Assembly (NCBI GenBank): GCA_000416275.1
Contig: ASZJ01000016.1
Location: 5,935-54,556, forward strand
Length of the DNA: 48,622 bases
Direction of reading: 5' to 3'
From: Osedax symbiont Rs1
GTDB taxonomy: Bacteria > Pseudomonadota > Gammaproteobacteria > Pseudomonadales > Balneatricaceae
Part shown: positions 4,189 to 46,289 of the stretch, piece by piece
Layout of the letters: every line of letters begins with the position of its first letter
Numbering within the stretch: the first letter of the stretch is position 1
Program-made: the position numbers and the translations under genes
Notes under the pieces: model-generated
What the model was told of the DNA's origin: nothing
Databases searched by the model: none
The model's input: only the letters and a program-made list of their open reading frames with translations

Positions 4189-4249
4189 GAATTGTGCTAT
4201 AGAACCAATTTTTTACGTTCAACATCCACTTTGGGATCACATATTCAGG
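4189..4249. repeat. Family A repeat, decayed right half (A0)
   Basis: The stretch matches the right-hand 60 bp of full-length family A copies: an AACCAAT segment, TTTTACG, CCACTTT and a terminal ATTCAGG at 4243-4249. There are many substitutions and no left end can be recognised. Confidence 0.55.
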
Positions 4250-4311
4250 TACTATTTATATTAATTTTGTTGATGGTCACCGTAACGCCACCCATCCAGT
4301 GTAAACATAAC

Positions 4312-4379
4312 CCTCAATCAGTGACTTCACTGCACACATAGCGCAAGCTATTGATTTACGTTGAAGTGACGGGTTTCGG
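4312..4379. repeat. Family A repeat, short 68-bp derivative (A1)
   Basis: It begins CCTCAATCAGTGACTTCAC and keeps the ACATAGCGCAAGCTATTGATT segment in the middle (split here for length). It ends GAAGTGACGGGTTTCGG. It has the same internal deletion and the same 68-bp length as the copy at 29000-29067. It ends 37 bp before the crbS start codon. Confidence 0.75.
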
Positions 4380-4416
4380 GATAAGGACACTTATAAAAAT
4401 GGCAGTAGAGTAAGTT

Positions 4417-7400
4417 ATGTTTTCTAATTGGTTATTAGTCAGTGTCAGCATCGGTTACATCAGTTTATTATTTTTATTTGCTCACCTGGGAGGAAAATAT
4501 CGTCATAAACTAGTCTCCTACCAACACAGTATTATTTATGCGCTATCGATAGGTGTGTACTGTACTTCCTGGGGCTTTTTAGGCACCGCCGCCCAAGCGG
4601 CAAACGCATCGTTTACCTACCTTTCTCTCTATATTGCCCCGATATTACTGTTTGTTTTTTGCTGGCCATTTATCCAGCGAGTGATTAAAATTAGCATTCA
4701 GCTAAATATCACTTCTATTGCTGATCTACTGTCTGCGCGCTTTGGAAAATCTCAAAAACTGGCGATTATTATCACCTTGGTGGCTTTAATTGGCACCATG
4801 CCCTATATCGCATTACAGTTGAAAGCGATTGTTTTTTCCTATCAAATATTGCAACAAAACCAAGATTTTCCCGGCTGGTTACTCGGTTTGATTGTCAGCA
4901 TTATTCTCGCGGGATTCACTATTCTATTTGGCGTGCGCAGCATCGATATTAGCGAGCGCCACCCGGGAGTGATGATTGCCATCGCCTTCGAATCTTTTAT
5001 TAAGTTAATCGCTTTTATTATCGTCGGGATATTCGTCTCCTTTTATGTCTTTGACTCTCCCCTTGAAATCTTTCAACAAACAATCGAGCATATTGATTTA
5101 TCGGCACAATTTTCATTATCCAGTTTAGTGGGTATGTTTGGATTGCTGATCATCGCCACTTCCGCGTTCCTCTGCTTACCGCGCCAATTTCAAGTGATGT
5201 TCGTGGAGATTAAAGAACCGAGATTCGCCAATCTTTCACGGTGGCTGATTCCTTTATATGTACTGGTATTTGCGTTTTTTGCCGCACCTATTGGCCTAGC
5301 GGGTTTTTTACAGTTCGGAGATACCGTGCCCGCTGACGCCTACGCCTTATTTTTACCGGCAGCCAACGGCCATCTGTGGCTATCACTGGTTTCATTTATT
5401 GGCGCTGTATCCGCCGCGAGCTCGATGGTTATCGTCTCCACTATTGCTTTAAGCACGATGCTCAGCAATGAAATTGTCTTTCCTTTAATGTTCAAGTATT
5501 CAAAAAAACCGCACATTGATTTTAAGCATTTTCAGTCTCATCTACTGTTGATTCGCAAAGCGTTAGTGATCTTAGTCATCGTATTGAGTTTAAGCTTATT
5601 ACTGTTCTCCCCAGCCGACACTCTCGCATCGCTAGGTGAAGTAGCGTTCGGTGCTATTGCGCAAATTGGCCCAGTGTTAGGCGCCGCTTTCTTTTGGCGA
5701 AGATCGACATTAACAGGGGTGTTAAGTGGTATTTGCAGTGGTTTTAGTATTTGGATGGTGTTTAATTTCTTACCGCAACTAGGTGTCATGGAACACCCCT
5801 TACAAGGCTCACAATACCCTGCTAACACTGTCGTGACTTTGTGCGGTCTACTGGTGAATATTATTGTTATGTGGCTGGTATCCATCGCCACCCGTCAAAG
5901 TTTGAGAGAACAGACCCAATCTAAGTATTTTTACCCTGAACGTCAGGCCGCTCAATGGAAATTGCCAATCCAACCTAAAGTTGATATCAATGAATTAGAG
6001 TTTTTGGTGGCACGTTTTATCGGCAGCGAAAAATCTGCTCTTTCATTTACGGAGTTTTCAGCCAGCAACCAGCAGCTTTTGCCTAAGGATTACGATCAGG
6101 CAATCATTACTCATGCAGAAACCACTTTGGCATCGGTGCTTGGTTCCGCATCTGCAAAGCTGGTCACCTCCTTTGCTTTGGGAGGTAGTGAAATGCCTTT
6201 TGATCAAGTGGCAAAGTTGGTCGAAGAAAGCTCCAATCAACAGCAGGAGTTTAGTCGCACTGTGTTACAAAGTGCCATCGAAAATGCCAGTGAAGGGATT
6301 TCGGTGATTGATAGCGAATTAAAGTTGGTCGCTTGGAATCAACGATACTTAGATATTTTTAACTTCCCCGAAGAGTATATCTATATTGGCAGCCCGATTA
6401 GTCAATTGATTAGACACAATTTAAGTTTACGACCAGAGTACGCCACCCGTCTCAACCAGCAAGTGCACCGGCGTTTAGAATACCTCAGACAAGGAAGTAG
6501 ACACAGCTCTGAAAGAAAGTTGGAAAATGGCATGACCATTCACATCGAAGGCAACCCTATACCTGGTGGCGGCTTCGTCATGATATTTAGCGACATCAGC
6601 GTTTACCGACAGAAAGAAACGTTTTTGAAGCAAGAAAATGATGATTTAGAAAGCAGAGTGCTGGAGCGCACCCAAGAGTTAGAACTGGCCAATCAAGAAT
6701 TAGCGCTGGCTAACCAAGAACTGGCGCTGGCCAGAGTAAAAGCTGAACAGGCCCATTTCAAAAAAAGCCAATACCTAAAAGCTTGTAGTCACGACTTGCT
6801 ACAACCGCTATCAGCGGCGAGATTGTTTTCATCAGCGGTGTGCCTAAGCTCTAAAGTTTCGCCGCAGGAGCGTCGGCAAATCAGACAGATAGATGAGTCT
6901 TTAGAAATTGCAAATACGCTATTATTAGACCTTAATGAGATTGCCAGAATTGAAAGCGGCAACATTAATCCGATCATAGAAGCGGTCTCAATTAGCCATT
7001 TGTTCAAGATATTGAGCTCTGAATTTAAGCCTTTAATTCAAGCCTCTCAGATAAATTTCAAGTATATTGACAGTCAATTATTTGTCAAATCTGACCTGAC
7101 TTTGCTGACTCGTATTTTGCAAAACTTCTTAAGTAATGCCTTTCGATACGCACCGCAGGGAAAGGTACTGCTCGGCTGCAGACGACAGGGGAAAGATCTC
7201 GCTATTCAAGTGTTTGATACAGGCCCGGGCATCCCCTACGATCAACAGCAGCAAGTATTCGAACAGTTCTCGCAATTATCAACCATCAAAACTAAGGGTC
7301 CCAAAGGATTGGGATTAGGGCTTAATATTGCTCAGAGTTTAGCGCTGTTATTAGACCACCGAATAGATTTGCAATCAGCGCAAGGCGCGGGGTGTATGTT

Positions 7401-7944
7401 TAGCGTCACCGTGCCCATCGCCATGACTCCTCAGATCGAAAGCATAGCTGCCAGCACTTTGGCAAACAGTTTACATGGGGTGAAAGTGCTCTGTATTGAT
7501 AATGAAGAAAGTATTTTACAAGGTATGTACGAGCTCTTAACCGCTTGGAAATGTGAAGTATATACCGCCCAGTGCGCAAGCCAGTCACTGCAGTTATTCG
7601 AACAGCACGATGGCCAATTTGATTTCTTACTGGTCGATTATCAACTGCAGGAAATCACAGCAACTAACGATGCCAATAAAAACAATACAAGCAAGTCTCC
7701 TGAAGCTGCTTACCAAAGTGATGGCATTGCCCTGATTCAGCACTTGCGCTCCCTAACCCGCTATAGCTTACCGGCTATTTTAATTACCGCCACTACCGAT
7801 GAAGATATTTTAGAGCGGGTAAAGAAAGAAGATATAGGCTATTTGAGAAAGATCATCAAACCTATTGCTTTAAGGGCGCTGATGAGTGCTTTACTGGCGA
7901 AAAACCTGGAAGAAAATTACGCCCAGCAAAAATCACCTTACTGA
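4417..7944 (+). CDS. crbS: Hybrid sensor histidine kinase with sodium/solute-symporter domain (CrbS-like)
   Basis: This is an inner-membrane sensor kinase of 1175 residues. Residues 1-about 500 form a 12-13 helix SSF (SLC5) transporter-like module. A linker of the STAC type follows. A PAS domain lies near 620-730 (IENASEGISVIDSELKLVAWNQRYLDIFN), then a coiled coil with repeated ELALANQ units. HisKA has the phospho-accepting H792 in CSHDLLQPL. The HATPase has NFLSNAFRYAP, DTGPGIP and GLGLGLNIAQ. A C-terminal receiver has D1074 in LLVDYQL and the conserved K in RKIIKP. This domain order is that of CrbS/MxtR, which with the LuxR-type CrbR/ErdR controls acetate utilisation (acs) in Vibrio and Pseudomonas. 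The receiver carries an insert (residues about 1078-1100, Asn/Lys-rich). It converges on crbR with a 12-bp overlap of coding ends. Confidence 0.85.
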   Translation: MFSNWLLVSVSIGYISLLFLFAHLGGKYRHKLVSYQHSIIYALSIGVYCTSWGFLGTAAQAANASFTYLSLYIAPILLFVFCWPFIQRVIKISIQLNITSIADLLSARFGKSQKLAIIITLVALIGTMPYIALQLKAIVFSYQILQQNQDFPGWLLGLIVSIILAGFTILFGVRSIDISERHPGVMIAIAFESFIKLIAFIIVGIFVSFYVFDSPLEIFQQTIEHIDLSAQFSLSSLVGMFGLLIIATSAFLCLPRQFQVMFVEIKEPRFANLSRWLIPLYVLVFAFFAAPIGLAGFLQFGDTVPADAYALFLPAANGHLWLSLVSFIGAVSAASSMVIVSTIALSTMLSNEIVFPLMFKYSKKPHIDFKHFQSHLLLIRKALVILVIVLSLSLLLFSPADTLASLGEVAFGAIAQIGPVLGAAFFWRRSTLTGVLSGICSGFSIWMVFNFLPQLGVMEHPLQGSQYPANTVVTLCGLLVNIIVMWLVSIATRQSLREQTQSKYFYPERQAAQWKLPIQPKVDINELEFLVARFIGSEKSALSFTEFSASNQQLLPKDYDQAIITHAETTLASVLGSASAKLVTSFALGGSEMPFDQVAKLVEESSNQQQEFSRTVLQSAIENASEGISVIDSELKLVAWNQRYLDIFNFPEEYIYIGSPISQLIRHNLSLRPEYATRLNQQVHRRLEYLRQGSRHSSERKLENGMTIHIEGNPIPGGGFVMIFSDISVYRQKETFLKQENDDLESRVLERTQELELANQELALANQELALARVKAEQAHFKKSQYLKACSHDLLQPLSAARLFSSAVCLSSKVSPQERRQIRQIDESLEIANTLLLDLNEIARIESGNINPIIEAVSISHLFKILSSEFKPLIQASQINFKYIDSQLFVKSDLTLLTRILQNFLSNAFRYAPQGKVLLGCRRQGKDLAIQVFDTGPGIPYDQQQQVFEQFSQLSTIKTKGPKGLGLGLNIAQSLALLLDHRIDLQSAQGAGCMFSVTVPIAMTPQIESIAASTLANSLHGVKVLCIDNEESILQGMYELLTAWKCEVYTAQCASQSLQLFEQHDGQFDFLLVDYQLQEITATNDANKNNTSKSPEAAYQSDGIALIQHLRSLTRYSLPAILITATTDEDILERVKKEDIGYLRKIIKPIALRALMSALLAKNLEENYAQQKSPY

Positions 7945-8589
7945 GGGGCCAAATGATGTATGTGCCAAATAAATGTCATTTAGCTTGATCACTGCCTGGG
8001 TACGATTGCGCACCCCCAACTTGAGAAAGATTGTACTGGCATGGCTTTTAACCGTAGATTCAGCGACACCTAGCTCATAAGCTATCTGTTTATTTAATAG
8101 CCCATCGGCGAACATCAGTAGTATTTTATGCTGCTGTGGAGTTAGCGAGTCAATCGATGCATCACTAGGTTTACAGTCTTTCGGTAAATAATGCTCTGCT
8201 GTAGGCGTCCACAATTCACCTTGAAAAATTCGCTCTATCGCCACCATCATTTCGCTAACAGCCGTTGATTTTGGGATAAAACCTGCGGCGCCATGCATCA
8301 TCGCTTTTTGAATAGTATCTTTATCTTCAATACCAGAGACGATGACAACGGCTAATTCAGGGTACTGGTGGCGTATTTGAATTAAGGTATTAAACCCCTG
8401 AGTGCCGGGAAAGTCCAAATCTAACAGCACTAAATCTGCAGTCGTCTCCTGTAGGATTTCCTCTAAATCTGTCACTGAATCAACTTCAAGTAATTCAATT
8501 CGATTAAAGTGCGACTTGAGCATCTCTGAGAGTGCTTTTCTAAATAGCGGATGGTCATCCGCTATTATTATTTTTTCGACAATCGTCAT
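7933..8589 (-). CDS. crbR: LuxR/NarL-family response regulator (CrbR-like)
   Basis: This is a DNA-binding response regulator of 218 residues. The N-terminal receiver has the acidic pair D11-D12, the phospho-acceptor D57 in LVLLDLDFPG and the PKS lysine near residue 110. The C-terminal LuxR helix-turn-helix is LTPQQHKILLMFADGLLNKQIAYELGVAESTVKSH (two parts), near residues 147-185. Its position tail-to-tail with a CrbS-like kinase makes it the likely cognate regulator, by homology an activator of acetyl-CoA synthetase and related acetate genes. The assignment of partner is from context and family, not shown. The TGA stop lies inside the crbS coding end. A dyad CCAGTAT-N5-ATACTGG at 8671-8689 lies 82-100 bp upstream and could be a control site. 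Confidence 0.85.
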   Translation of the reverse strand: MTIVEKIIIADDHPLFRKALSEMLKSHFNRIELLEVDSVTDLEEILQETTADLVLLDLDFPGTQGFNTLIQIRHQYPELAVVIVSGIEDKDTIQKAMMHGAAGFIPKSTAVSEMMVAIERIFQGELWTPTAEHYLPKDCKPSDASIDSLTPQQHKILLMFADGLLNKQIAYELGVAESTVKSHASTIFLKLGVRNRTQAVIKLNDIYLAHTSFGPSVR

Positions 8590-8670
8590 CTTTAATATTA
8601 ATCCTGTTTATTCCAGCTACACCCATTTTTCTCTCTGATGGGCAACGCTAATTGTGTTCATTATTAATTC

Positions 8671-8689
8671 CAGTATAAATCATACTGGC
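8671..8689. promoter_or_regulatory. Inverted repeat upstream of crbR
   Basis: CCAGTAT, a 5-base spacer, ATACTGG: a perfect 7-bp dyad 82-100 bp upstream of the crbR start codon. It could be an operator; no regulator can be named. Confidence 0.35.
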
Positions 8690-8700
8690 AATATGAAGCC

Positions 8701-8847
8701 CCAGTATGACTACTACGCTCGGTAATCCGGCATTTAAATCAGCTCAACCTTCTCATTTATAACTATAACAGCCATAACAAGAGGCACTCTGGACTCCTTT
8801 ATTTGGCCGTTCTTTTACCTTGTCTTTCCTTATTGTTACCAAGGTCT
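8701..8847. repeat. Family B repeat, decayed copy (B7)
   Basis: It keeps the family B landmarks in order: GTATGACTACTACGCTCGGTAAT, GCTCAACCTTCTCATTTA, ACAGCCATAA, TTTTACCTTGTCTTTCCTT and a terminal GTTACCAAGGTCT. Substitutions and small deletions are common, so this is an old copy. Confidence 0.65.
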
Positions 8848-8860
8848 ATTTTTAGCTCTA

Positions 8861-9059
8861 TATTTTCAAAGTGAATAAAGAGTGTAATATATTAGTTTGA
8901 CAGGGGAATTAAAAAATATTAACTGCCAGCTCATATGCGTCCTGCATTCGCTAAACAAATGCATTCCCGCATAAAACACATAGCTTCAGTGGGTGTTTTT
9001 CTAACCGCTGTAGAATCAAGAGCTTGCGCTATGTGGTGCAGTGATGTCACTGATTCAGT
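8861..9059. repeat. Family A repeat, long subfamily (A2)
   Basis: In reverse orientation it carries TCAAAGTGAATAAAGAGTG at the left, then a cassette with CTCATATGCGTCCTGCATTCG (two parts), then the AGCTTGCGCTATGTGGTGCAG block and GTCACTGATTCAG at the right end. The left terminal repeat is worn away. The internal cassette is shared, in the same relative place, with the copies at 22525-22699 and 25699-25813, defining a longer subfamily. Confidence 0.75.
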
Positions 9060-9064
9060 GTTAT

Positions 9065-9263
9065 GATGCCTCTGCATAACTTACCCAGAGGGTATGATAA
9101 CTGCGCTCGGTAATACGGAATAACCGGCTCAACATGCCCATTTACACCAGTAACAGCCATAAAGAAGGACACACTGTACCCAAAGTGAGGGGCACACTGA
9201 CTCCGCTATCTCGGCGGTTTTTGCCTTGTCTTATCTTCGCTCGCAACGCTATGCAGAGGCCTC
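9065..9263. repeat. Family B repeat, full-length copy (B2)
   Basis: The 199-bp element has near-inverted ends: GATGCCTCTGCATAAC on the left and GCTATGCAGAGGCCTC on the right. The interior holds GGTATGATAACTGCGCTCGG, the CACCAGTAAC segment and CGGTTTTTGCCTTGTC. It lies 74 bp beyond the stop of the diguanylate cyclase gene and only 5 bp from the A2 element. Confidence 0.85.
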
Positions 9264-9336
9264 GTTATAGCTATTCATGTTATTTAGCCATCCATAATGA
9301 ATACATCACATTTTAGAGGCGTTGATCAACATTAAT

Positions 9337-10446: not shown

Positions 10447-10573
10447 TTACCTTAAATCCATTTTTTATCACGAAGATTAACTTAGATATACATTTGAGCT
10501 TAACACGTAAGCTTGATTCATCTAATTCGCTGTCCATTTTGTTGAGTAAGACACTGCTTATTCTTATTTTATA

Positions 10574-10608
10574 CCTGAATCCGTGACTTCAAAGTAAATA
10601 ATGAGCGC
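10574..10608. repeat. Family A repeat, solo end (A3)
   Basis: It starts CCTGAATCCGTGACTTCAAA and continues GTAAATAATGAGCGCTG, matching the left end of reverse-oriented family A copies for about 35 bp and then losing similarity. No matching right end is seen. Confidence 0.6.
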
Positions 10609-11041
10609 TGTGCACTTATTGAAAGAAGCTGCATCTAAGAGTTTCTCTTAGTCGGCGTAGTTTAAATTATAACCAACAACTAATCGATCTCTTTTTGACC
10701 TTAACGTTAATTACCCACATTCAATCATGTCGCATTATTGCAACTCAAATACAGTACATATTATTAACAGTGTATTTTGTATTATTAATATCGCTTAACA
10801 GCTAGTTATGATCAAATAACGCACTGCTGTTTTTATTTTTGCTAGGTACGCACAACTCCTCTTTGCGTTATTATGATATCTGGCACATCTGGGAAGCAAG
10901 ATAGATGTAGCATCCTGTAAATTGTTCCCGAAAAATCAAATCAACATTATAATGACGTGTTTGATATCACCCGACCATCTTATTCGAGATTGCCACTACT
11001 GCTGAAGCGGGCTTTTGTAAATTTCAGCTCAAATAAATGAG

Positions 11042-11076
11042 CCTTGTCTAAAATCTAGTCGTTATGCATAGGTCTC
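11042..11076. repeat. Family B repeat, right-end fragment
   Basis: CCTTGTCTAAAATC followed by GTCGTTATGCATAGGTCTC aligns with the terminal 35-40 bp of family B. The rest of the element is missing. Confidence 0.6.
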
Positions 11077-11157
11077 AGCTTCTCAAAGCTAAGCCTCAAG
11101 CAGACTATTCACTCTGCCACGATTAAAGATGGATCATCTCGAGAACCCAACCTATAT

Positions 11158-11317
11158 CCTGAATCAGTGACTTCAATGCACCACATAGCGCAAGCTATTG
11201 ATTCTACAGCGGTTAGAAAAATGCCCGCTGAACCTACGGGTGCAGCTAAGATTTTTCAATTCCACTGTAAAACCAATATCTTACACTCTGTATTCACTTT
11301 GAAGTCACGGATTCAGG
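11158..11317. repeat. Family A repeat, intact copy with 5-bp target duplication (A4)
   Basis: The 160-bp element begins CCTGAATCAGTGACTTCA and ends TGAAGTCACGGATTCAGG, which are inverted repeats of each other with one mismatch in 18. It is flanked on both sides by TATAT (11153-11157 and 11318-11322), the pattern left by transposition with a 5-bp target duplication. There is no open frame inside. This copy is the best reference for the short (160-bp) subfamily. Confidence 0.85.
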
Positions 11318-12302: not shown

Positions 12303-12312
12303 GATTCAGTTT

Positions 12313-12515
12313 GAGACCTTCGCATAACGTTGCGAGCAAAGATAACACAAGGCAAAAACCGGCGATATAGCGGAGTCAGTGCGCCCCTCACTTTGGGTGC
12401 AGTGTGCCCCTGTTTATGGGTATTACTGGTGTAAATGAGCATATTGAGCCGGTTTTTAACGCCGTATTACCGAGCGCTGTTATCATACCCTCTTGGTAAG
12501 TTATGCAAAGGTCTC
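12313..12515. repeat. Family B repeat, full-length copy (B3)
   Basis: The 203-bp element has the best-preserved ends: GAGACCTTCGCATAAC and GTTATGCAAAGGTCTC, inverted with two mismatches in 16. An internal inverted pair, AAAAACCGGC and GCCGGTTTTT, is also present, so the whole unit can fold into a long hairpin or cruciform. Flanks are AGTTT on the left and AGCTT on the right, a possible worn 5-bp target duplication. It begins 25 bp after the aqpZ stop. Confidence 0.85.
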
Positions 12516-12630
12516 AGCTTAAAACTTCGATCTATACCAGTGACGGCGGGCACAGCGCGGTCACTGGATTCGCGATTTAATCACTGCTCGACTCTCGTAA
12601 AAGCTACTAGTTGATTCTACAGAGCTCTCT

Positions 12631-17189: not shown

Positions 17190-19295
17190 ATGTTTAGTCG
17201 AATTTTAATTGCAAACAGAGGCGAAATAGCCTGCAGAATCATCAACACAGCCCAACAAATGGGCATCCATTGTATTGCCGTATACTCGCAGGCAGATATC
17301 GATTCTCAGCATGTGCGCATGGCAGATGAGGCTTTTTTACTGGGACCGGCGCAGAGTAGCGACAGCTATCTAAGAGCTGACAAAATATTACAAATAGCCA
17401 AGCTTAGTGGTGCCCAAGCTATTCATCCAGGCTATGGGTTTCTATCGGAGAATGCCGAGTTCGCCACAGCTTGCGAGCAACTTAACATCGTATTTATTGG
17501 GCCGCCAGCGGCTGCTATTGCAGCGATGGGTTCAAAATCAGCGGCGAAAGAGATCATGGCTAATGCTCAAGTTCCGCTGGTCCCCGGCTATCACGGCGCC
17601 GATCAAGATCCGGAATTACTGGCCAGCGAAGCGGTTAAATGCGGCTTTCCGCTGTTATTAAAAGCAGTCGCCGGTGGTGGCGGTAAAGGTATGCGGGTGG
17701 TCGAGTCCATCGAGGAATTTACCTTGGCCCTCAGCTCTGCACAACGAGAGGCTAGTAACGCTTTCGGCAACAGTGATATGTTGTTGGAGCGATACCTCAG
17801 CAACACCCGTCATATTGAAGTCCAAGTTTTTTTCGATCAACAGGGAAATGGAATCTATCTCTCGCAGCGAGATTGCTCCATCCAGCGCCGGCATCAAAAA
17901 ATCATTGAAGAGGCACCCGCCCCAGGTATTAGCCAAAAAGTAGTTGAAGCTATGGGAGAGGCAGCCTTAGATGCCGCTCGGGCCATTAATTATGTCGGTG
18001 CAGGGACGGTCGAATTTTTGTTCAATGAAGATGATAGCTTCTACTTTATGGAGATGAACACCCGCTTGCAAGTTGAGCACCCTGTCACAGAGATGATCAC
18101 CAATACTGATTTGGTTCAGTGGCAGCTACGGATTGCGCACGGCGCTCCCCTGCCACTTACTCAAGCCCAAGTCCAAGTGACAGGTCACGCAATTGAATGT
18201 CGAATTTATGCCGAAGATCCCAATAATGATTTTTTGCCCGCCACCGGCCATTTAAGCTATCTGCGCACTCCGACTGAAACTGAGCAGCTAAGAGTAGATA
18301 CTGGTGTGGTGCAAGGCGATGAAGTTAGTGTCTACTATGACCCAATGATTTCAAAACTGATTGTGCATGCTGAAAGCCGGCCACAGGCAATTGCAAAAAT
18401 GGCCCAAGCGCTCCAGGATTATCGGATCGTCGGGGTGAAAAACAATCTGAGCTTTCTGCATAAAATAATCACTAATGATGTGTTTAAACACAGCATTGTC
18501 AATACCCATTTTATCGAGCAGTATCGAGCTGTTCTTTTTGCTAACACGTTAGATATTGATCAGTGTATGGCAATCGCCAGTGTCGCCAAAATCTTATCTT
18601 ACCCAGCGGCAAAAGCTCAAGACATCTATGCAGGAGGTGTGCAATGGCGTATGAATCAAAGCCCCCACTACCACATAACTTGGTTAGAGCAAGGTGTTAA
18701 TGCCACTGATCCGCATGAGGACAGTCAATTATGTCAGCTACTCGTCGAGGAGTTACAAGATAACTTACTCTCCAGCTACTGCCCTAATGCCGAAAAAAAC
18801 GTATCAGAATCACCCCCTTATAGAGCCTTTAAAGTCACTAGCAGTGCACCAGCCGAATCATCTACTGCCGGTAATGATACTGAGTATCTGATTGCTGCTA
18901 CCTTGCAGGGAGATGAGCTAGCCGTGCGCATCAATGGCCGAAAAATTAAGCTTCATGCCTATATAAATAATTCACAGCTGATTTTATTCTATTACGGAAC
19001 TAGCATTCAATTCCAGGCACCTAATTTAGCAAAATCCACTGAAGAGATTGATAACAAAGGTGCCCTGACTGCGCCGATGAACGGTCGAGTGATTGCCGTC
19101 TTAGTTAAAGCAGGACAGACCGTAAAAGCAGCTACTCCGTTGATTATTATTGAAGCGATGAAAATGGAGCACAGCATTTTAGCCCCCTATGCAGGCAGAG
19201 TGACTGATATTTTTTATCCAGAGGATAGTCTAGTGGCAGAGGGAGACAAACTGATTGCAATGCAAGATGCGACAAATTCCCAAACTAGCACCTGA
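17190..19295 (+). CDS. liuD: Methylcrotonyl-CoA carboxylase, biotin-carrying (alpha) subunit
   Basis: This subunit carboxylates its own biotin using ATP and bicarbonate. Residues 1-about 450 are a biotin carboxylase (ILIANRGEIACRI, the ATP-grasp KAVAGGGGKGMRVV, FMEMNTRLQVEHPVTE). A linker domain follows, then a C-terminal biotinyl domain with EAMKMEH and the modified K658. The length (701) suits the family. The stop codon lies inside the family A repeat that starts at 19291: the last codons are AGC ACC TGA, and TGA is bases 3-5 of that copy's terminal sequence CCTGAG. Most likely the native stop was displaced or removed by insertion, with the biotin domain complete before it. A gap of 124 bp separates it from liuC. 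Confidence 0.95.
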   Translation: MFSRILIANRGEIACRIINTAQQMGIHCIAVYSQADIDSQHVRMADEAFLLGPAQSSDSYLRADKILQIAKLSGAQAIHPGYGFLSENAEFATACEQLNIVFIGPPAAAIAAMGSKSAAKEIMANAQVPLVPGYHGADQDPELLASEAVKCGFPLLLKAVAGGGGKGMRVVESIEEFTLALSSAQREASNAFGNSDMLLERYLSNTRHIEVQVFFDQQGNGIYLSQRDCSIQRRHQKIIEEAPAPGISQKVVEAMGEAALDAARAINYVGAGTVEFLFNEDDSFYFMEMNTRLQVEHPVTEMITNTDLVQWQLRIAHGAPLPLTQAQVQVTGHAIECRIYAEDPNNDFLPATGHLSYLRTPTETEQLRVDTGVVQGDEVSVYYDPMISKLIVHAESRPQAIAKMAQALQDYRIVGVKNNLSFLHKIITNDVFKHSIVNTHFIEQYRAVLFANTLDIDQCMAIASVAKILSYPAAKAQDIYAGGVQWRMNQSPHYHITWLEQGVNATDPHEDSQLCQLLVEELQDNLLSSYCPNAEKNVSESPPYRAFKVTSSAPAESSTAGNDTEYLIAATLQGDELAVRINGRKIKLHAYINNSQLILFYYGTSIQFQAPNLAKSTEEIDNKGALTAPMNGRVIAVLVKAGQTVKAATPLIIIEAMKMEHSILAPYAGRVTDIFYPEDSLVAEGDKLIAMQDATNSQTST

Positions 19296-19443
19296 GTCCA
19301 TGACTTCAAAGTGAATACAGAGCGTAAAACATTGCTTTTACAGTGGAATTGAAAAATCTTAACTGCACCCATAGTTTCAGTGGGATTTTTTTAACCGTGT
19401 ATAATCAATAGTTTACGCTACGCAGTGCAGTTACTGATTCAGG
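19291..19443. repeat. Family A repeat inserted at liuD 3' end, with target duplication (A5)
   Basis: The 153-bp copy is in reverse orientation: CCTGAGTCCATGACTTCA on the left, TTACTGATTCAGG on the right. It is flanked by TAGCA on both sides (19286-19290 and 19444-19448), a perfect 5-bp target duplication. It splits the liu operon between liuD and liuE and supplies the liuD stop. Confidence 0.88.
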
Positions 19444-19596
19444 TAGCAGTTCAACCGAGAGTTCAATCAAGAGTAGCGAGCTGAGTGAGAGCAAGGCTAT
19501 TTAAGGAAAAATTAACGCTTACTCTGCATAGGTCATCCTGATGCCAGGGATATGTATGACTGGTGCAGCGGTTAACGACATAACACGCCAAGGAAA

Positions 19597-22322: not shown

Positions 22323-22382
22323 CCTCAATCTATGGTTTCAAAGTGAATCGAGAGTTTGTGCTATGTGGAGTCCGGATTTAGG
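22323..22382. repeat. Family A repeat, 60-bp deletion derivative (A6)
   Basis: CCTCAATCTATGGTTTCAAA and GTGAATCGAGAG on the left are joined directly to TGTGCTATGTGGAGTCCGG and ATTTAGG on the right: both ends of a reverse-oriented copy with the middle missing. It starts 6 bp after the acyl-CoA synthetase stop. Confidence 0.6.
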
Positions 22383-22524: not shown

Positions 22525-22699
22525 CCTGAATCAGTGACTTCACCGGCTAGAAAAACACCCACTGAACTGATAAGTTTTATGCATGGATATATTTATTTAG
22601 CGGATGTAGGACGCATATGAACTTGCTGTTAAAATTATTAAATCCCCTTTAAAACCAATATTTTACATTATTCATTCACTTTGAAATCATGGATTCAGG
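22525..22699. repeat. Family A repeat, long subfamily (A7)
   Basis: It begins CCTGAATCAGTGACTTCA and ends TGAAATCATGGATTCAGG. The interior carries the cassette GCGGATGTAGGACGCATATG shared with 8861-9059 and 25699-25813. Part of the left arm is deleted. No matching target duplication is seen. Confidence 0.8.
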
Positions 22700-22945: not shown

Positions 22946-23105
22946 CCTGAATCAGTGACTTCAAAGTAAAAACAGAGTGTGAGGTATTGGCTCTACAGTG
23001 GAATTGGACAATCTTAGCTGCACTCATAGGTTCAGCGGGTATTTATCTGACTGCTGTTGAATCAAGAATTTTCGCTATGTGGTGCAGTGAAGTCACTGAT
23101 TCAGG
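22946..23105. repeat. Family A repeat, intact 160-bp copy (A8)
   Basis: In reverse orientation, it starts CCTGAATCAGTGACTTCA and ends TGAAGTCACTGATTCAGG, perfect 18-bp inverted repeats. It has the same length and content as the copy at 11158-11317. Flanking bases do not give a clear target duplication. Confidence 0.85.
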
Positions 23106-25568: not shown

Positions 25569-25640
25569 TGACAAGGCAAAAACGGGAAAAATAGCGGAGT
25601 TAGTATACCCCTCATTTTGGCTACCGCACTCCCCTATTTA
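25557..25640. repeat. Family B fragment overlapping the GGDEF-EAL gene end (B6)
   Basis: GCTAGCGAATGATGACAAGG followed by CAAAAACGGG, ATAGCGGAGT and ACCCCTCATTTTGG matches the reverse-oriented family B consensus (GCGAGCGAAGGTAAGACAAGG, CAAAAACCGG, and so on). The gene's stop TGA (25566-25568) lies inside it. The remainder of the B element is absent. Confidence 0.6.
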
Positions 25641-25698: not shown

Positions 25699-25813
25699 AG
25701 CGAGTGCAGGACGCATATGAGCTTGCCGCTAATATTTGTCAATGCCACTGTTGTAGTGGTCAAATCGACCAATATCTGACGCTCAGTATTCTCTTTCGAG
25801 TCACGGATTCAGG
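25699..25813. repeat. Family A repeat, long subfamily, left-truncated (A9)
   Basis: It starts within the cassette (GCAGGACGCATATGAGCTTG) and runs to the right end GAGTCACGGATTCAGG. The left end is missing, replaced by the C-type unit. Confidence 0.7.
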
Positions 25814-26615: not shown

Positions 26616-27099
26616 TAACGCACCTATCCATGCAAAGCTATTCGACTATCTGCGCGTACATTGAATACAAATATTTTAGAATAAACTTCTATCATATAAA
26701 ATCAGCTATTTGCTATTCCATATAGGGTAGTTCAGAGCAGCGAAAATTGCCAAATTATGGCGGATAAATAGATAGGGACCTCTGCATAACTAACCCGGAG
26801 GGTATGATAACTGCGCTCGGTAATACGGTGTTAAAAACCGGCTCAACATGCTCATTTACACCAGTAATACCGATAAAGAATGGCACACTAACTCCACTAT
26901 CTCGCCGATTTTCGCCTGGTCTTACCTTCACTCGCAACGTTATGCAGAAGTCTCAAATAAATTGTTCTTTAATTCGCAGCTGTTCCCCCTCACTTGCGAT
27001 TAGCACTCTGGTGAGTGTTCTAATTTGTGATAGGTAAGGTTGCAGTAGCATTTCTAGTATCTGTCGCTGTAACTAATCAGTGTTCGAGCGGCCCGCCTG
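26616..27099. other. Intergenic region between zapE and the solute-binding protein gene
   Basis: It contains a family B copy (26775-26954). The region 26616-26774 should hold the promoter of the solute-binding protein gene. 26955-27099, just past the zapE stop, shows no clear terminator. Confidence 0.55.
26775..26954. repeat. Family B repeat, copy B4
   Basis: The 180-bp copy runs from GGGACCTCTGCATAAC to GTTATGCAGAAGTCTC. Like B1, it lacks the roughly 20-bp internal partial duplication (the extra GGCACACTG segment) seen in B2 and B3, which gives two size classes in this family. Confidence 0.85.
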
Positions 27100-28999: not shown

Positions 29000-29067
29000 C
29001 CTGAATCAGTGACTTCACTGCAGCACATAGCGCAAGCTCTTGATTCACTTTGAAGTCACGGATTCAG
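29000..29067. repeat. Family A repeat, short 68-bp derivative (A10)
   Basis: It begins CCTGAATCAGTGACTTCACT and ends TTTGAAGTCACGGATTCAG. Compared with the 160-bp copies, about 92 bp are missing between two ATTC tetramers, so recombination or slippage at ATTC may have made it. It lies 29 bp upstream of the slyD start and would be in its promoter or leader. Confidence 0.8.
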
Positions 29068-29124
29068 AATTAAGGAATGAGACTCGCGCCGGTGCAATAG
29101 ACGCGAGTCGATAACAGCTGGCTA

Positions 29125-39586: not shown

Positions 39587-39613
39587 CTGCTTAGCCACTG
39601 GCTAGTACAGCAC

Positions 39614-40858: not shown

Positions 40859-40949
40859 TGTACTTCTCCCATTATACTCTTGAATTGGCGCATTCAGCGC
40901 ATTCAAAATTATTCTATATACTGATACTTTTGTTCTTGTCTACTGAGCC

Positions 40950-40996
40950 CATTAGCTTGTCTTACCTTCGCTCGCAACGTTATTCAGAGGTCTCAT
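40950..40996. repeat. Family B repeat, right-end fragment (B5)
   Basis: CTTGTCTTACCTTCGCTCGC followed by AACGTTATTCAGAGGTCTC matches the last 40 bp or so of family B almost exactly. It lies between the acpP terminator and fabF. The rest of the element is absent. Confidence 0.75.
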
Positions 40997-41010
40997 TTTA
41001 TTAGATATAC

Positions 41011-41050
41011 AAAAGAAAAGCCGCTCTAAACAAATAGTAACGGCTTTTTT
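41011..41050 (-). terminator. Intrinsic terminator after acpP (bidirectional)
   Basis: AAAAGCCG and CGGCTTTT form an 8-bp stem (41016-41023 and 41041-41048) around a 17-base loop. On the minus strand the stem is followed by CTTTT, and on the plus strand by further T. It lies 30 bp past the acpP stop and would let acpP be made in excess over fabF, as is usual. Confidence 0.75.
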
Positions 41051-41079
41051 TAGATCTAAACGATTACAAACAGTATTGA

Positions 41080-41313
41080 TTACTGATTAGAAGTAACGTA
41101 ATCAATAGCCAGTTGTACAGTAGTGATTTTTTCAGCTTCTTCATCGGGAATTTCAGTTTCGAATTCTTCCTCTAAAGCCATTACTAGCTCAACGGTGTCT
41201 AGAGAATCCGCGCCTAAATCATCAACAAAAGATGCAGGATTAGTAACTTCTTCAACTTTAACGCCTAACTGTTCTGCAACAATTTTTTTAACGCGATCTT
41301 CAATATTACTCAT
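41080..41313 (-). CDS. acpP: Acyl carrier protein
   Basis: This 77-residue carrier of fatty acyl chains has the phosphopantetheine serine S37 in [12 protein letters not shown]. It is highly acidic and of standard length. It lies between fabG and fabF, with 203 bp upstream that can hold its own promoter and a terminator downstream, suggesting independent high expression. Confidence 0.98.
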
Positions 41314-41516
41314 AATTTTTCCTATTATTTATCAACATAGCAACATACGATATGCAACTTTTGATTATTAAATATTATCAGCTCTTAAATGGAGCTAATA
41401 ATTTTTTATTCGATTCAGGTGTGGCAATTATCAACAAATCTCTGAAAATATCAATCACAATTGTCGGTTTTTGCTAATCTGAGTCCGATTTAGCCAATCT
41501 TTATGCTTAGTACTCA

Positions 41517-42260
41517 CTAAGACATATACATACCACCATTGACCTGGATTGTTTCACCCGTTACATAGGACGCAGCTTCGCTGGCTAAAAAGCCTACTAC
41601 TGTAGCTATTTCTTCAGGCTTACCTAAACGTTTGACTGGAATTTTAGATGTTAAAGCCTCTTTGTGTTCCTCTGCCAGACCTTTTGTCATATCGGTGTCA
41701 ATGAAACCTGGTGCCACACAATTGACGGTCACATTACGCGAGCCAATCTCACAGGCCAGAGCCCTAGAAAAGCCTTCCATCCCCGCCTTGGAAGCTGCAT
41801 AATTGGTCTGCCCTGCATTGCCCATCGAGGCAACCACGGAACTGACACTAATAATCCGACCCCAACGCTTTTTACTCATACCACGCAAACACGCTTTTGC
41901 AACACGGTAGACAGAGGACAGATTAGTGTTAATCACACTATCCCACTCACTCGCTTTCATCCGCATCAGCAAATTATCTTTAGTGATACCGGCATTGTTA
42001 ACCAAAATATCAACCACCGCGTATTCATCATTGATACGCTTAATTGTTTGTGCGACAGACTCATCACTGCCCACATCTAAGACCATACCAGCACCTTGAA
42101 TACCCGCAGCACTTAAGTATTCAGAGATTGAAGCAGCACCTGCCTCACTGGTTGCAGTACCTATAACAATCGCTCCTTGACACCCTAACTCTTCGGCAAT
42201 TGCCTTGCCAATACCGCGAGTTGCGCCAGTCACTAATGCAAGCTTTCCTTCGATACTCAT
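41517..42260 (-). CDS. fabG: 3-oxoacyl-ACP reductase
   Basis: This NADPH-dependent reductase of the elongation cycle is a short-chain dehydrogenase of 247 residues. It has TGATRGIG (11-18), NNAG near 88 and the catalytic S141, Y154 and K158 in SSVVASMGNAGQTNYAASKAG (split). The C-terminal VTGETIQVNGGMYMS is typical. An AGGA site precedes the ATG. It is between fabD and acpP. Confidence 0.97.
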   Translation of the reverse strand: MSIEGKLALVTGATRGIGKAIAEELGCQGAIVIGTATSEAGAASISEYLSAAGIQGAGMVLDVGSDESVAQTIKRINDEYAVVDILVNNAGITKDNLLMRMKASEWDSVINTNLSSVYRVAKACLRGMSKKRWGRIISVSSVVASMGNAGQTNYAASKAGMEGFSRALACEIGSRNVTVNCVAPGFIDTDMTKGLAEEHKEALTSKIPVKRLGKPEEIATVVGFLASEAASYVTGETIQVNGGMYMS

Positions 42261-42342
42261 ATTTTTTTCCTATGCTAATTTCTTATTCTTAATTTATTAT
42301 TGAGCCCAAATAATACAGGCGACGCCCGGCAGATTCGCCCGC

Positions 42343-43272
42343 TCAAGCCAAGGCTTTTTCCCAGCCCGCGCTATCTGCTAAAGACGCTATCACTAAGGGC
42401 TTGTGAATTTTTTTATTCAGACCAGACAGAACTTTACCTGGCCCACATTCTATCGCCACTTGCACACCGCTTTCAATAACACTCTGCATAGACAAGGTCC
42501 AAAGCACCGGACTATACAGCTGCGCAATTAAGTTTTGTTTTATTTCTGCCACACTTTCTGGCGATTTAGCAGAGACATTCTGCAGCACCTTAATCTTTGG
42601 CATTTGCAACTCAATGTCCTGCAATTTTTTCGCTAGCTGCGCCGCTGCAGGGCGCATCAATTCACAGTGTGAGGGCACACTCACCGGCAGCTCTATCGCC
42701 CGTTTAGCGCCACTTGCCTTGCAGGCAATAATAGCCCTGGCAACCGCCGCTTTTTCGCCGGCAATAACCACTTGACCTGGACAATTGAAATTAACCGCCG
42801 CCACCACTTGCCCTTGCGCCGAACTTGCACAAGCCTCTTCCACTAACGCATCGGCCAAACCCAGAATAGCCGCCATAGCACCAGCCCCTGCCGGCACCGC
42901 TTGCTGCATGTACTCGCCACGCAAACGCACCAAATCAATGCCATCGGCAAACTCCAGCACCCCAGCGCATACTAACGCGGTGTACTCTCCCAGACTATGC
43001 CCCGCCATCACCTGCGGCAGTGCAGCTCCTTTTTCTAGCCATAGACGCCACAGCGCCACCCCCGCACACAATAACGCAGGTTGAGTGCGATCAGTTTGAT
43101 TCAAGTCTTCCGCGGGCCCCCGCTGTACTAAAGCCCATAAATCATAGCCTAGCACCGCTGATGCCTCGGCAAATGTCTGTTCGATAATTGGATTTTCTGC
43201 GGCTAGTTCAGCCAACATGCCAACTTGCTGGGAACCTTGCCCAGGAAAAACAAATACTGTTGATGGTGTCAT
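42343..43272 (-). CDS. fabD: Malonyl-CoA:ACP transacylase
   Basis: It loads malonyl groups onto ACP. The 309 residues have FPGQGSQ at 9-15, the catalytic serine S93 in GHSLGEYTALV and the histidine in SVPSHCELM near 202. The frame also opens with GTG at 43284; the ATG at 43272 fits the family start. In Pseudomonas the gene upstream is plsX; here the upstream 343 bp are non-coding, so fabD probably has its own promoter. Confidence 0.95.
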   Translation of the reverse strand: MTPSTVFVFPGQGSQQVGMLAELAAENPIIEQTFAEASAVLGYDLWALVQRGPAEDLNQTDRTQPALLCAGVALWRLWLEKGAALPQVMAGHSLGEYTALVCAGVLEFADGIDLVRLRGEYMQQAVPAGAGAMAAILGLADALVEEACASSAQGQVVAAVNFNCPGQVVIAGEKAAVARAIIACKASGAKRAIELPVSVPSHCELMRPAAAQLAKKLQDIELQMPKIKVLQNVSAKSPESVAEIKQNLIAQLYSPVLWTLSMQSVIESGVQVAIECGPGKVLSGLNKKIHKPLVIASLADSAGWEKALA

Positions 43273-43615
43273 TGCAGGTTCCACTCCATAAAAATTAGGT
43301 TTTACTAAAAACTGTTTTTTATCAATTACTTTTAAAAATATTCTACAACATTAGAAGAAAAATAAAATCACTAATATTCAAAACTATTAGTAAACTTTAG
43401 CGACGACGCTGTTTAATGAGCCTAAAGGGCTGATTCGCGATGATATAAAAGAACGACGGGGATATAAATAGAGACTAGCCAGCTTCGACTAATGAGAGAG
43501 GATTAATAATTCCCTAGATGGGCACTGCCGAATACTTTACCACAAAAAAATATGGAGGCCTAAGCCCCCATACGTCACATCAATCGCAAAGTGCTGCGAT
43601 GCAATCCAGCAGCAA
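43273..43615. other. Non-coding gap between rpmF and fabD; plsX missing
   Basis: No open frame of plsX or recognisable remnant is present. The part next to rpmF holds a terminator (43544-43572). The part next to fabD (about 43290-43400) is strongly AT-rich and is the probable fabD promoter region. Confidence 0.7.
43544..43572 (-). terminator. Intrinsic terminator of the yceD-rpmF operon
   Basis: On the minus strand, TATGGGGGC, a 4-base loop and GCCTCCATA (one G-U pair) are followed at once by a run of seven T. It lies 44 bp past the rpmF stop and is a textbook terminator, ending the operon before fabD. Confidence 0.88.
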
Positions 43616-43795
43616 TTACTCGCTGTCAGTCGCTGTGATTTGACGACCACGGTACATACCGTCAGCTGTCATGTGATGACGACGGTGAGTTTCACCAGTA
43701 GTCGCATCAACGGTTAATGTAGGTCCTGATAGCGCATCGTGTGAACGACGCATATCACGGCGTGAACGTGATTTCTTACTCTTCTGTACTGCCAT
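43616..43795 (-). CDS. rpmF: 50S ribosomal protein L32
   Basis: The 59-residue protein starts [20 protein letters not shown] and continues [15 protein letters not shown], the normal L32 sequence. It is very basic and lacks cysteines, so it is the zinc-free form. It is 20 bp downstream of yceD and is followed by a strong terminator. The ATG has an AGGAG site (in the yceD-rpmF gap). It is too short to be noticed by length alone but is certain. Confidence 0.97.
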
Positions 43796-43815
43796 TTGAT
43801 ATAACTCCTAATAAC

Positions 43816-44343
43816 TTATTTCTTGTCGGTGCTGCCCTTTAAGGAGGCCAACACACTAAATGGATTTGGTTTCTCAGCCTCTGAAGCAGCGGCTGCATTT
43901 CCATCACCAAAACTGGTTTGTATACTGCAATCTGAATGATATGACACTATTGGTAACTCTAGCATCAGCTCTTGTTCAATTAATGGCAGCAACTCTAAAT
44001 CATCACCCTCTACGATCAGAGGCTCATAATATTTAGGTAGCGTTTGAGCTTTTTCTTCATTATATGAAATTGCCAAGTTTAACTCAGCATTCAATGTAAT
44101 ATCTACCGGCTCTAAACAGCGCTGGCACTGTACTTGAACAGTAACTTTAGCACTACCTGAAATCGTTCTGATTCTCAGCTCATCTCTAGCGAACTTTAAA
44201 TCTGCTATCACATCAACGTTCGGGCCAACTAACATTTTTGATAGCTCTGTCATTTCATTGACAGCTAGTACACCACTAATTTGTATTTCCCGATCAGCCA
44301 ATTTCCGCGGGTCAACAAATTTAGGTAATTTAACATTTAACAT
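43816..44343 (-). CDS. yceD: YceD family protein (DUF177), rRNA accumulation protein
   Basis: This 175-residue DUF177 protein, in E. coli YceD, is linked to 23S rRNA accumulation. It starts MLNVKLPKFVDPRKLA, has the CQRCLEP cysteine pair typical of the family and ends with NPFSVLASLKG. It is co-transcribed with rpmF. A consensus promoter lies so close upstream that the start codon would be only about 3 nt into the mRNA, and no ribosome site is visible. Confidence 0.92.
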   Translation of the reverse strand: MLNVKLPKFVDPRKLADREIQISGVLAVNEMTELSKMLVGPNVDVIADLKFARDELRIRTISGSAKVTVQVQCQRCLEPVDITLNAELNLAISYNEEKAQTLPKYYEPLIVEGDDLELLPLIEQELMLELPIVSYHSDCSIQTSFGDGNAAAASEAEKPNPFSVLASLKGSTDKK

Positions 44344-44352
44344 AAGCGCGCA

Positions 44353-44381
44353 ATTCTATGTACCTTACCCCCCTCTGTCAA
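44353..44381 (-). promoter_or_regulatory. Sigma-70 promoter of yceD-rpmF
   Basis: On the minus strand, TTGACA (44376-44381), a 17-bp spacer and TAGAAT (44353-44358). The -35 is perfect and the -10 differs by one base. Transcription should start near 44346, just before the ATG at 44343. Confidence 0.8.
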
Positions 44382-44482
44382 AGGGAAACGTATGTTTGTG
44401 GTAAAAATTCGCGTATATTGTACGCCATTTTTACAAAAGCTAAAAGTTTGTTGATCGATTAGCTTTATCAGAGGTTTTTTCA

Positions 44483-45067
44483 TTGAGAACTATCATACTT
44501 GCTTCAAGCTCACCTTATCGGCGCGCTATTCTAGATAAAATCCAACTCAGTTACCACTCAATTAGCCCACAAATAGATGAAACACCCCAAACCGCTGAGA
44601 CGGCGAGGGAAATGGTGGCGAGACTCGCATTGCAAAAAGCCGAAAAAGTAGCACAAACCCAAACCGACAGTCTTATTATAGGCTCTGATCAAGTCGCGTT
44701 ATTAGAGGGCAATATTTTAGCTAAACCACTCACCGCAGAACGCGCCGTACAACAGCTTGCACAGAGCTCCGGTAAAACGGTGGTTTTTTATACCGGGCTC
44801 TGCCTACTTGACAGCGCAGATGCTAGCTACCAATTAGAAGTAGTGACATTCAAGGTACATTTTCGACAGTTGAGCGAGCGAGAAATTACTACTTACATCG
44901 CCCTAGAGCAACCTCTCGACTGCGCGGGCAGCTTTAAAGTCGAAGGCTTAGGGATAAGCTTGTTTGAAAAATTAGAGGGCGATGATTTCAACAGCTTAAT
45001 CGGCCTGCCATTAATTCGACTGTTAGCGCTTTTAAAAAATAAAGGAATTTCGCCGCTACTACGGTAA
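44483..45067 (+). CDS. yceF: Maf-family nucleotide pyrophosphatase (YceF-type)
   Basis: This house-cleaning enzyme hydrolyses modified NTPs; YceF acts on m7GTP. The 194 residues have ILASSSPYRRAILD at the start, the catalytic aspartate in IIGSDQVAL near 71, and EGLGISLFEKLEGDDFNSLIGLPL. The start codon is TTG (44483) with an AGAGG site 9 bp before; no ATG fits. Its divergent placement next to yceD-rpmF is the E. coli yceF position, which supports the YceF subtype over YhdE. Confidence 0.92.
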   Translation: MRTIILASSSPYRRAILDKIQLSYHSISPQIDETPQTAETAREMVARLALQKAEKVAQTQTDSLIIGSDQVALLEGNILAKPLTAERAVQQLAQSSGKTVVFYTGLCLLDSADASYQLEVVTFKVHFRQLSEREITTYIALEQPLDCAGSFKVEGLGISLFEKLEGDDFNSLIGLPLIRLLALLKNKGISPLLR

Positions 45068-45152
45068 TCCCTAGCGCACATAGAGGCGAATAATTACAGT
45101 AGAGAATCCAACGATTGCTGGAATATTGAAGGGTTTAGAGAAAACAGTTATC

Positions 45153-45173
45153 GCAGAGCACTGTTTGCTCTGC
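45153..45173. other. Hairpin between maf/yceF and pta
   Basis: GCAGAGCA, CTGTT, TGCTCTGC: a perfect 8-bp stem in the space between two converging genes. There is no clear T-run on either side, so a terminator role is uncertain. Confidence 0.35.
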
Positions 45174-45205
45174 ACGCCTAATCCAGAACCTTACACAGAA
45201 ATAGA

Positions 45206-46198
45206 CTACTGAGCTTGCACGACGGTAATGGCGATAACGTTTAACACATCACTGGCACTGCAACCTCTTGAAAGATCATTGGCGGGCTTCTTCAAACCTT
45301 GCAAGATCGGCCCAATCGCCTGCGCTTTACCAATTCGCTCGGCTAATTTATAGCCGATATTACCCGCTTCTAGCGAGGGAAATATCAGCACGTTAGCTCG
45401 GCCCTTTACCTGTGAGTTTGCCACTTTTTTCGCCGCTATTTCCGGAACGATTGCCGCATCTAATTGCACTTCACCATCAATTATCAAGTCTGGTTGCGCC
45501 TGTTTAACTAACGCGGTAGCGGCGATTACTTTATCAACTGCCGGGTGTTTAGCACTGCCATTGGTTGAGAAAGAGAGCATCGCAATTCTGGGCGACTCCT
45601 GTAGTAGAGTAACGGCACTTTTAGCGGCACTTAGCGCTATTTCAGCGAGCTGCTCTGCATCGGGGTCAATCACTAATGCGCAATCAGAGAATATAATTCC
45701 ACCTTGCACGTCATGAAAAGGCTGACACATCATCATCAAGAAAAAGCTAGAGACTATTTTCGTCGATTCGGCTTTGCCAATTATTTGCAGTGCTGTGCGC
45801 ACCGTATCTCCCGTTGTATAAACAGCACCAGCCACCGATCCATCTGCATCCCCTAAGTGCACCATTAACTGCGCATAATAAAGTGGCTCATCTGTGAGCT
45901 CGCAAGCTTGCTGCTGTGACATTCCCTTAGCTTTACGCAGTTGAAATAACTGCTCTGTGTAACGTTTCTTTTCGGGGGAGTTTTGCGGATCAATAATGGT
46001 AATATTATGCAGGGTAAGATTTAATTTTTTTGCCTGCAACGCTATCCGCTGCGGCTCACCCAACAAAGTAATTTCAGCTAGGCCCTTGGCGACACACTGA
46101 ACTGCAGCGGTGATAATTCTTGGGTCTTCTCCTTCAGCCAATACTATTTTTTTTGGGTTTTCACTAGCGCGTGCAAAAATATTATTCAATGCTTTCAT
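45206..46198 (-). CDS. pta: Phosphate acetyltransferase
   Basis: It interconverts acetyl-CoA and acetyl phosphate. The 330-residue product is a short PTA of the Bacillus/EutD kind, without the N-terminal DRTGG regions of the E. coli enzyme. It has VLAEGEDPRIITAA near the start, VAGAVYTTGDTVRTALQIIG and VLIFPSLEAGNIGYKLAERIG near the end. The ATG at 46198 is used (a TTG two codons earlier is in frame). No ackA is in the window. With crbS/crbR near the other end, acetate metabolism is a recurring theme. A 57-bp A derivative is 34 bp upstream. Confidence 0.9.
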   Translation of the reverse strand: MKALNNIFARASENPKKIVLAEGEDPRIITAAVQCVAKGLAEITLLGEPQRIALQAKKLNLTLHNITIIDPQNSPEKKRYTEQLFQLRKAKGMSQQQACELTDEPLYYAQLMVHLGDADGSVAGAVYTTGDTVRTALQIIGKAESTKIVSSFFLMMMCQPFHDVQGGIIFSDCALVIDPDAEQLAEIALSAAKSAVTLLQESPRIAMLSFSTNGSAKHPAVDKVIAATALVKQAQPDLIIDGEVQLDAAIVPEIAAKKVANSQVKGRANVLIFPSLEAGNIGYKLAERIGKAQAIGPILQGLKKPANDLSRGCSASDVLNVIAITVVQAQ

Positions 46199-46232
46199 CG
46201 ACAACCATCTCTTTTCGAATGATAATTATTAG

Positions 46233-46289
46233 CTGAATCGGTGGCTGCAAAGCAGCCGTTGAGCACCGCATAGAAGTCACTAACTCAGG
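46233..46289. repeat. Family A repeat, 57-bp derivative, decayed (A13)
   Basis: CTGAATCGGTGGCTGCAAAG on the left and GAAGTCACTAACTCAGG on the right match the two ends of family A; the middle keeps GCACCGCATAG. It lies 34 bp upstream of the pta start codon. Confidence 0.5.

Follow-up and report, generated by a model that had tools for sequence, protein, structure and literature searches.

A geneless repeat of Osedax symbiont Rs1 with the ends of IS1380-family insertion sequences: a probable MITE in an estimated 250 or more copies

Small elements that encode no transposase and have the ends of an autonomous transposable element have been described in bacteria before. MITEPye1 of Paracoccus yeei, as presented in the portion of the report cited here (PMC11578231), is a small, geneless element with IS1182-like ends and direct repeats; it is mostly intergenic, can fold into a long stem and is present in one to three chromosomal copies. 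The Tn3-derived TIMEs, in the account consulted (PMC4133298), have no transposase, bear the 38-bp ends of their autonomous family, duplicate 5-6 bp of target, are 262 bp long and usually occur as single copies. Here we describe a repeat, family A, noticed in a stretch of 48,622 nucleotides from contig ASZJ01000016.1 of Osedax symbiont Rs1 (the window). Family A shares the listed features of MITEPye1 except that its ends are of another insertion sequence (IS) family and that it has hundreds of copies; it shares with TIMEs the missing transposase, the ends of an autonomous family and the duplication length, and differs from them in end type, size and number. Other high-copy, intergenic repeats are ERIC (30-711 copies) and the Chunjie element (38 copies plus 57 partial ones, size varying between 178 and 235 bp), as covered in part of a review (PMC10969869); we liken them to family A by description and not by sequence. 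Judging from sequence comparison, we think that family A is a miniature inverted-repeat transposable element (MITE), non-autonomous and IS-related, of IS1380 type, which would be mobilised in trans, and we put the probability of this reading at roughly 0.93.

The ends of the element are those of IS1380-family ISs of about 1.65 kb found in Marinobacter, Marinomonas, Neptunomonas, Alteromonas and others, whose termini are close to a left inverted repeat (IRL) CCTGAATCCGTGACTTCA and a right inverted repeat (IRR) CCTGAATCAGTGACTTC. In the portions of the literature cited, the IS1380 family is credited with direct repeats of 4-5 bp (PMC12116815), and IS1247 with a length of 1672 bp and 5-bp repeats (PMC3281130); both agree with the 5-bp duplications and the IS length that we see here. 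The comparison started from a transposase piece (L051) on contig C22 of the Rs1 genome, whose stop codon and the outer end of CCTGAATCAGTGAGTTCA are 230 bp apart. From 121 loci related to it in public genomes, 80 were kept for analysis of their ends. Both ends within five mismatches were present in 56 of the 80, mostly 1.63-1.74 kb apart (three of these, L090, L115 and L119, look spurious, and some of the 24 loci without both ends are cut by contig ends), and exact 5-bp duplications were present in 29 of the 56, or 29 of the 51 with both flanks. NCBIfam assigns three of the relatives, the C22 piece and a further Rs1 locus (L047) to the IS1380 family transposases; the score of the C22 piece, 131.6 bits, is below the cut-off of 180 set for whole proteins.

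The ninth base of the termini narrows the relationship further. When any base was allowed at this position, 57 IS loci had both ends. Among the nearest relatives (L053-L075), 17 of 18 two-ended loci have C at the left end and A at the right, and 35 of the 39 other two-ended loci have C on both sides. One C end and one A end are found in 89 of 110 MITEs. Since this left-right asymmetry is common to the MITEs and to L053-L075, the MITE matches, as far as terminal sequence can tell, the IS1380 branch that has pieces in the same genome. That branch (Marinomonas, Marinobacterium, Marinobacter, Neptunomonas and Alteromonas) is the closest described system: in most of its loci the terminal 18 bp agree with family A with 0-4 mismatches, and it makes the same 5-bp target duplication. 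It differs in being about 1.65 kb long with a transposase gene, in contrast to the geneless MITE of 160 or about 209 bp. No IS1380 transposase is encoded between the ends of the element (160-209 bp); family A is a derivative probably served by the IS1380 family and not an IS1380 IS. The inside of the element is unrelated to the compared ISs and forms a near-palindrome.

The genome that contains the window is a draft assembly of 4,505,254 bases in 226 contigs. It has 524 family A ends at no more than one mismatch and none of a reversed-pattern control, which suggests that elements number about 250 or more and make up roughly 1% of the sequence. In six congeners the ends number 40, 13, 7, 5, 2 and 0. 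The 160-bp consensus, with up to seven candidates scored per genome, matched 6 of 116 genomes of the taxonomic family, all of its own genus, and had no match in the other genera among the 116; a separate search of 38 genomes, Rs1 included, found the element in six and in none outside the genus. Two matches of the end pattern on viral contigs (L146, L147) were taken as chance, since each is an isolated 18-bp match and the element has no other similarity there. Rs1 copies of 160 bp differ from the consensus by 5.1 bases on average (41 copies, two of them identical to it), in a sample biased towards young copies because many were selected for their similarity to one in the window. Because copies are near the consensus and two are identical to it, some of the burst is, to judge by sequence divergence, probably recent.

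The first-pass annotation of the window had proposed transposition with a 5-bp staggered cut from two perfect duplications, and the genome-wide copies bear this out. Among 107 two-ended copies, 106 have both flanks, and an exact 5-bp duplication borders 71 of these. Duplications of 4, 6, 7, 8 or 9 bp were seen in none of the 106, a 3-bp match in three, and mispaired flanks gave 261 matches in 11130 (2.3%). The duplicated bases are 90% A+T, compared with 57% in the sample. The proportion with a 5-bp duplication varies with size: 48/60 at 160 bp, 11/17 at 205-213 bp, 3/7 at 161-204 bp, 6/14 at 76-159 bp, 3/7 at 75 bp or less and 0/1 above. The duplication thus has the same length in the MITEs as in the related ISs.

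Insertion can also be seen from sites without the element, a check that the annotation had proposed. Paralogous empty sites whose alignments are free of gaps up to 10 bases from the junction were found for 5 of the 71 duplicated copies, two of them weak; the best is that of L009, which aligns to L151 over 140 bp at 82% without a gap. The empty sites of L009 and L200 lie in one same repeat, and the repeat family that hosts these two MITEs is also found at L010, L151, L161 and L199. At L184, near 2011-2170, the target of a 160-bp MITE was an older, decayed copy, which has 67-70% identity to others of the family. The spacer around the window copy at 19291 is about 96-126 bp between the flanking matches in five of the six congeners, as opposed to about 400-440 bp here; 158 bp of the excess are the MITE and its duplication, and the remainder is other sequence. 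In the sixth congener (G002) the downstream gene alone aligned, and for the copy at 11158 the downstream flank alone aligned, in two congeners. The paralogous sites, the short congener spacers and a MITE lying in an IS piece (described below) all show insertion. Joined-flank matches of L007, L023, L144, L134, L193, L191 and L167 to their own loci were excluded as empty sites. The candidate L027 was rejected, its match to a second dispersed repeat, family B, beginning only from about the junction. The junctions of L175 and L203, the two weak cases, also resemble family B edges.

Of the presumed parent IS, the Rs1 genome yielded only pieces, with ends nearly identical to those of the MITE. Contig C22 has residues 276-433 of the transposase and an IRR, CCTGAATCAGTGAGTTCA; C26 has residues 1-126 and an IRL, CCTGAATCCGTGACTTAA; C48 has residues about 123-206; C206 has residues about 46-156 and an IRL with two mismatches. 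In addition, there are two IS left ends, one on C130 with residues 1-25 and one on C43, of about 100 bp, with no meaningful coding match. On C130 a 209-type MITE sits within the transposase gene, the uninterrupted sequence being given by the C26 piece. The IS sequence continues only 37 bp behind this MITE, and the repeated bases can be read as ATTAT with one base inserted in the MITE end, or as ATTATC. A MITE on C48 stops about 11 bases short of the IS piece, and the contig starts inside the MITE. Three of the six pieces (C22, C48 and C206) are near contig starts. Repeats such as family A may break draft assemblies, and since the Rs1 assembly is a draft, an intact parent IS is possible in unassembled sequence.

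The same genome has four intact IS1380-family copies (L047-L050), identical over at least 1609 bp and with open reading frames (ORFs). Since they are identical over this length and open, they have probably been active recently, to judge by their sequence. Their ends, TAGCCCGCATNTTGCA (one copy has a changed left end), are unlike those of the MITE, and on these ends we rejected them as donor. A transposase from outside the matching IS1380 branch could nevertheless be the mover, for instance theirs or a Tn3-type enzyme with a 5-bp cut. In favour of this are their apparent activity and the confinement of our genome search to IS1380 transposases. The MITE ends, however, fit one IS1380 branch down to its left-right difference. 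Moreover, the exact right-end 18-mer is carried by each of 15 full-length ISs listed in G056, a single-contig genome of the same taxonomic family with at least 15 such copies (15 of 25 candidates scored). Hence we consider a different mover extremely improbable. The six other exact ends in G056 comprise four that form two IS-sized pairs and two that stand alone; the consensus search did not find the MITE in this genome.

Several observations weigh against assigning family A to IS1380. The MITE and the compared IS loci have only the terminal 18-27 bp in common, and 21 of the 110 MITEs lack the C/A pair of ends. Exact duplications are missing from 35 of the 106 two-ended copies; in the first sample all four copies of the 60-75-bp class were without one, although in the larger sample 3/7 of those of 75 bp or less have it. 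Nor are the copies a random sample, since they were collected through similarity or end matches. The empty sites of L175 and L203 are weak because one flank of each aligns over only about 21 bases. The Rs1 genome yielded no intact IS whose ends come near CCTGAATCCGTGACTT and CCTGAATCAGTGA, and none of the six congeners gave a PF13701 match; because of these two results the donor enzyme is an inferred one.

With these points taken into account, the IS1380 reading suggests the following history. An IS1380 transposase would have acted in trans, binding the 18-bp ends and inserting the element through a 5-bp staggered cut. In this species about 250 or more copies would have arisen, part of them recently, and the parent IS may since have been lost or broken, or may survive in unassembled sequence. 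A more speculative suggestion is that of a hit-and-run, in which an IS1380 element of the matching branch would have set off the spread of several hundred MITEs in this one species and then perished, in part because MITEs inserted into it. We regard this as rather doubtful. If correct, the genome would contain a young MITE swarm along with its dead parent, a natural case in which the parasite of a parasite outlives its host element and helps to kill it. With 524 ends here, 0-40 in the congeners and only broken IS pieces found, the end of a MITE burst and the harm done to its parent could be tested within one genus.

The first-pass annotation had interpreted the repeat as MITE-like and had not recognised it as a named family. 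The first part gains from the IS1380-family ISs whose ends match the 18-bp terminus; the second was tested against Rfam only, which gave no match in the window at the gathering score. We found no IS1380-linked MITE in the literature searched, including the portions available of PMC11578231, PMC4133298, PMC3542288, PMC3281130 and PMC12116815, which does not prove that none has been published; in the main text of the review PMC10969869, so far as it was available, the term IS1380 does not occur. As far as tested (Rfam and literature), the family is new and of a known kind, a MITE probably served by IS1380 transposases. What sets it apart is how many copies a single species has and that the parent is broken. 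An unnamed, very abundant repeat can now be assigned to a transposase family.

The element is an imperfect palindrome of two arms of about 80 bp each. Hence the description of its ends as 18-bp terminal inverted repeats holds for the ends themselves and not for the limit of 18 bp. Most copies belong to one of two sizes, 160 bp or, with 49 additional central bases, about 209 bp. A search for two-ended elements, restricted to 36-260 bp, gave 107 between 41 and 239 bp long, among them 61 of exactly 160 bp and 11 of 209 bp. A short multicopy element with IS-like ends and no transposase gene has the features of a prokaryotic, IS-related MITE of type I. The shortest form (L167, 554-594) is 41 bp long, barely more than two 18-bp ends, and is bordered by an exact TCCCA duplication; it may have moved in this form, or its inside was lost after insertion.

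ERIC- or NEMIS-like repeats can serve as models for an intergenic repeat that is maintained by its host. Could family A be of this sort, an RNA or DNA repeat kept for the hairpin in its transcript, its mobility being old and incidental? Some properties are in keeping with such a role. Read from its C-type end, the 11158 copy gives a very stable RNA fold of -81.3 kcal/mol (z -12.8), compared with -59.1 (z -7.95) when read from the A-type end. Over 78 ungapped positions the arms of the Rs1 consensus agree at 57 and differ by 8 transitions and 13 transversions. All eight transitions give G.U and none A.C on the C-first strand, which is unexplained. The corresponding ratios in five congeners (consensus or single sequences, which are not independent) are 6:0, 9:0, 9:1, 8:2 and 10:3. 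The older window copies are less one-sided, with 4:4 at 19291 and 3:5 at 22525. Copies are also mostly outside ORFs, with 4 of 65 inside (gene calls here and below being mechanical ORFs of at least 90 amino acids).

The difference between the strands and the eight-to-zero bias thus suggested an RNA function, which the classes of mutation and the larger sample of orientations did not support. Distinct changes away from Watson-Crick pairing among the 41 copies are about equal, 21 to G.U versus 17 to A.C. With tandem neighbour genes as the reference, the two orientations number 42 and 32 (p 0.30). The split is 31 to 18 (p 0.085) for genes whose end lies at most 100 bp away and 23 to 11 (p 0.058) when the limit is 50 bp; a smaller sample had a stronger bias (16 to 5 within 100 bp), which weakened with more data. 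Together with the fall from 524 ends to 0 across congeners, this makes maintenance by the host very unlikely, if somewhat less so than a different mover. We conclude that no function beyond mobility is shown, the tests of function having given nothing significant. On the mobile-element reading, we take the near-palindrome to be a by-product or a stabilising feature of mobile DNA rather than a demonstrated function. Intergenic hairpins in these genomes can be mobile DNA.

In the window, the end pattern CCTGAATCMGTGACTTCA occurs at 15 sites with up to three mismatches, compared with a mean of 0.09 in shuffled sequences. The "about 15 copies" reported at first are therefore a count of ends; alignment to the family consensus gives nine clear elements or fragments (E <= 1e-4) and three faint ones. 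The five copies that had been named are all at their positions. Strand + is used below for parts with the C-type end first. The complete 160-bp copy at 11158..11317 (-) has 98.8% identity to the consensus and is flanked by an exact duplication, TATAT. The 153-bp copy at 19291..19443 (+), with 84%, is flanked by an exact TAGCA, as had also been reported. The ORF 17190-19295 takes its stop codon from the first bases of this copy, CCTGA; the ORF by reading of its sequence, without a family search, looks like a biotin carboxylase. The second complete 160-bp copy, at 22946..23105 (+), has 88% identity and no target duplication (TAATA / TGTAA). Two copies that had been called near-complete, at 8861-9059 and 22525-22699, are correctly placed and belong to the second form of about 209 bp with its 49 extra internal bases. 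By alignment the first occupies 8865..9059 (+), with 90% identity to the 209-bp consensus and an eroded C-type end; the other, 22525..22699 (-), is an internally deleted 209-type copy of 175 bp without exact duplication.

Smaller parts of the family are also present. At 4312..4379 (-) there is a 68-bp deletion derivative with an A-type end, a decayed other end and no target duplication, and at 29000..29068 (-) one of 69 bp, in which 47 bp of the A-type side are joined to a C-type end between GTTAA and ATTAA. Consensus alignment further gives a C-type end stub of the first 27 bp at 10574..10600 (+) and half of a 209-type copy at 25699..25813 (-). The faint parts are a C-type end remnant at 4197..4249 (-; 72% over 53 bp, E 0.02), weak when taken alone, a remnant with pieces of both ends at 22323..22368 (+; E 0.006-0.02), and a weak, decayed copy of 58 bp at 46232..46289, given without a strand, whose flanks TATTA / CATTA agree at 4/5 and which consensus alignment missed. 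That the window has no transposase, as had been said, agrees with the ORF list, which by reading of it contains no transposase-like frame, and with an IS1380 profile search run on the genome rather than on the window alone, none of whose six hits is on the window contig (C16).

The window also has other repeats. Family B is found at 1-118, 9064-9266, 12310-12516, 25570-25640, 26777-26957 and 40918-40997, and at times it abuts copies of family A, as at 9059/9064 in the window and at L016 and L027. A stretch of about 48 bp at 19470-19517 has at least 15 matches in congener G002 and is perhaps a third repeat family.

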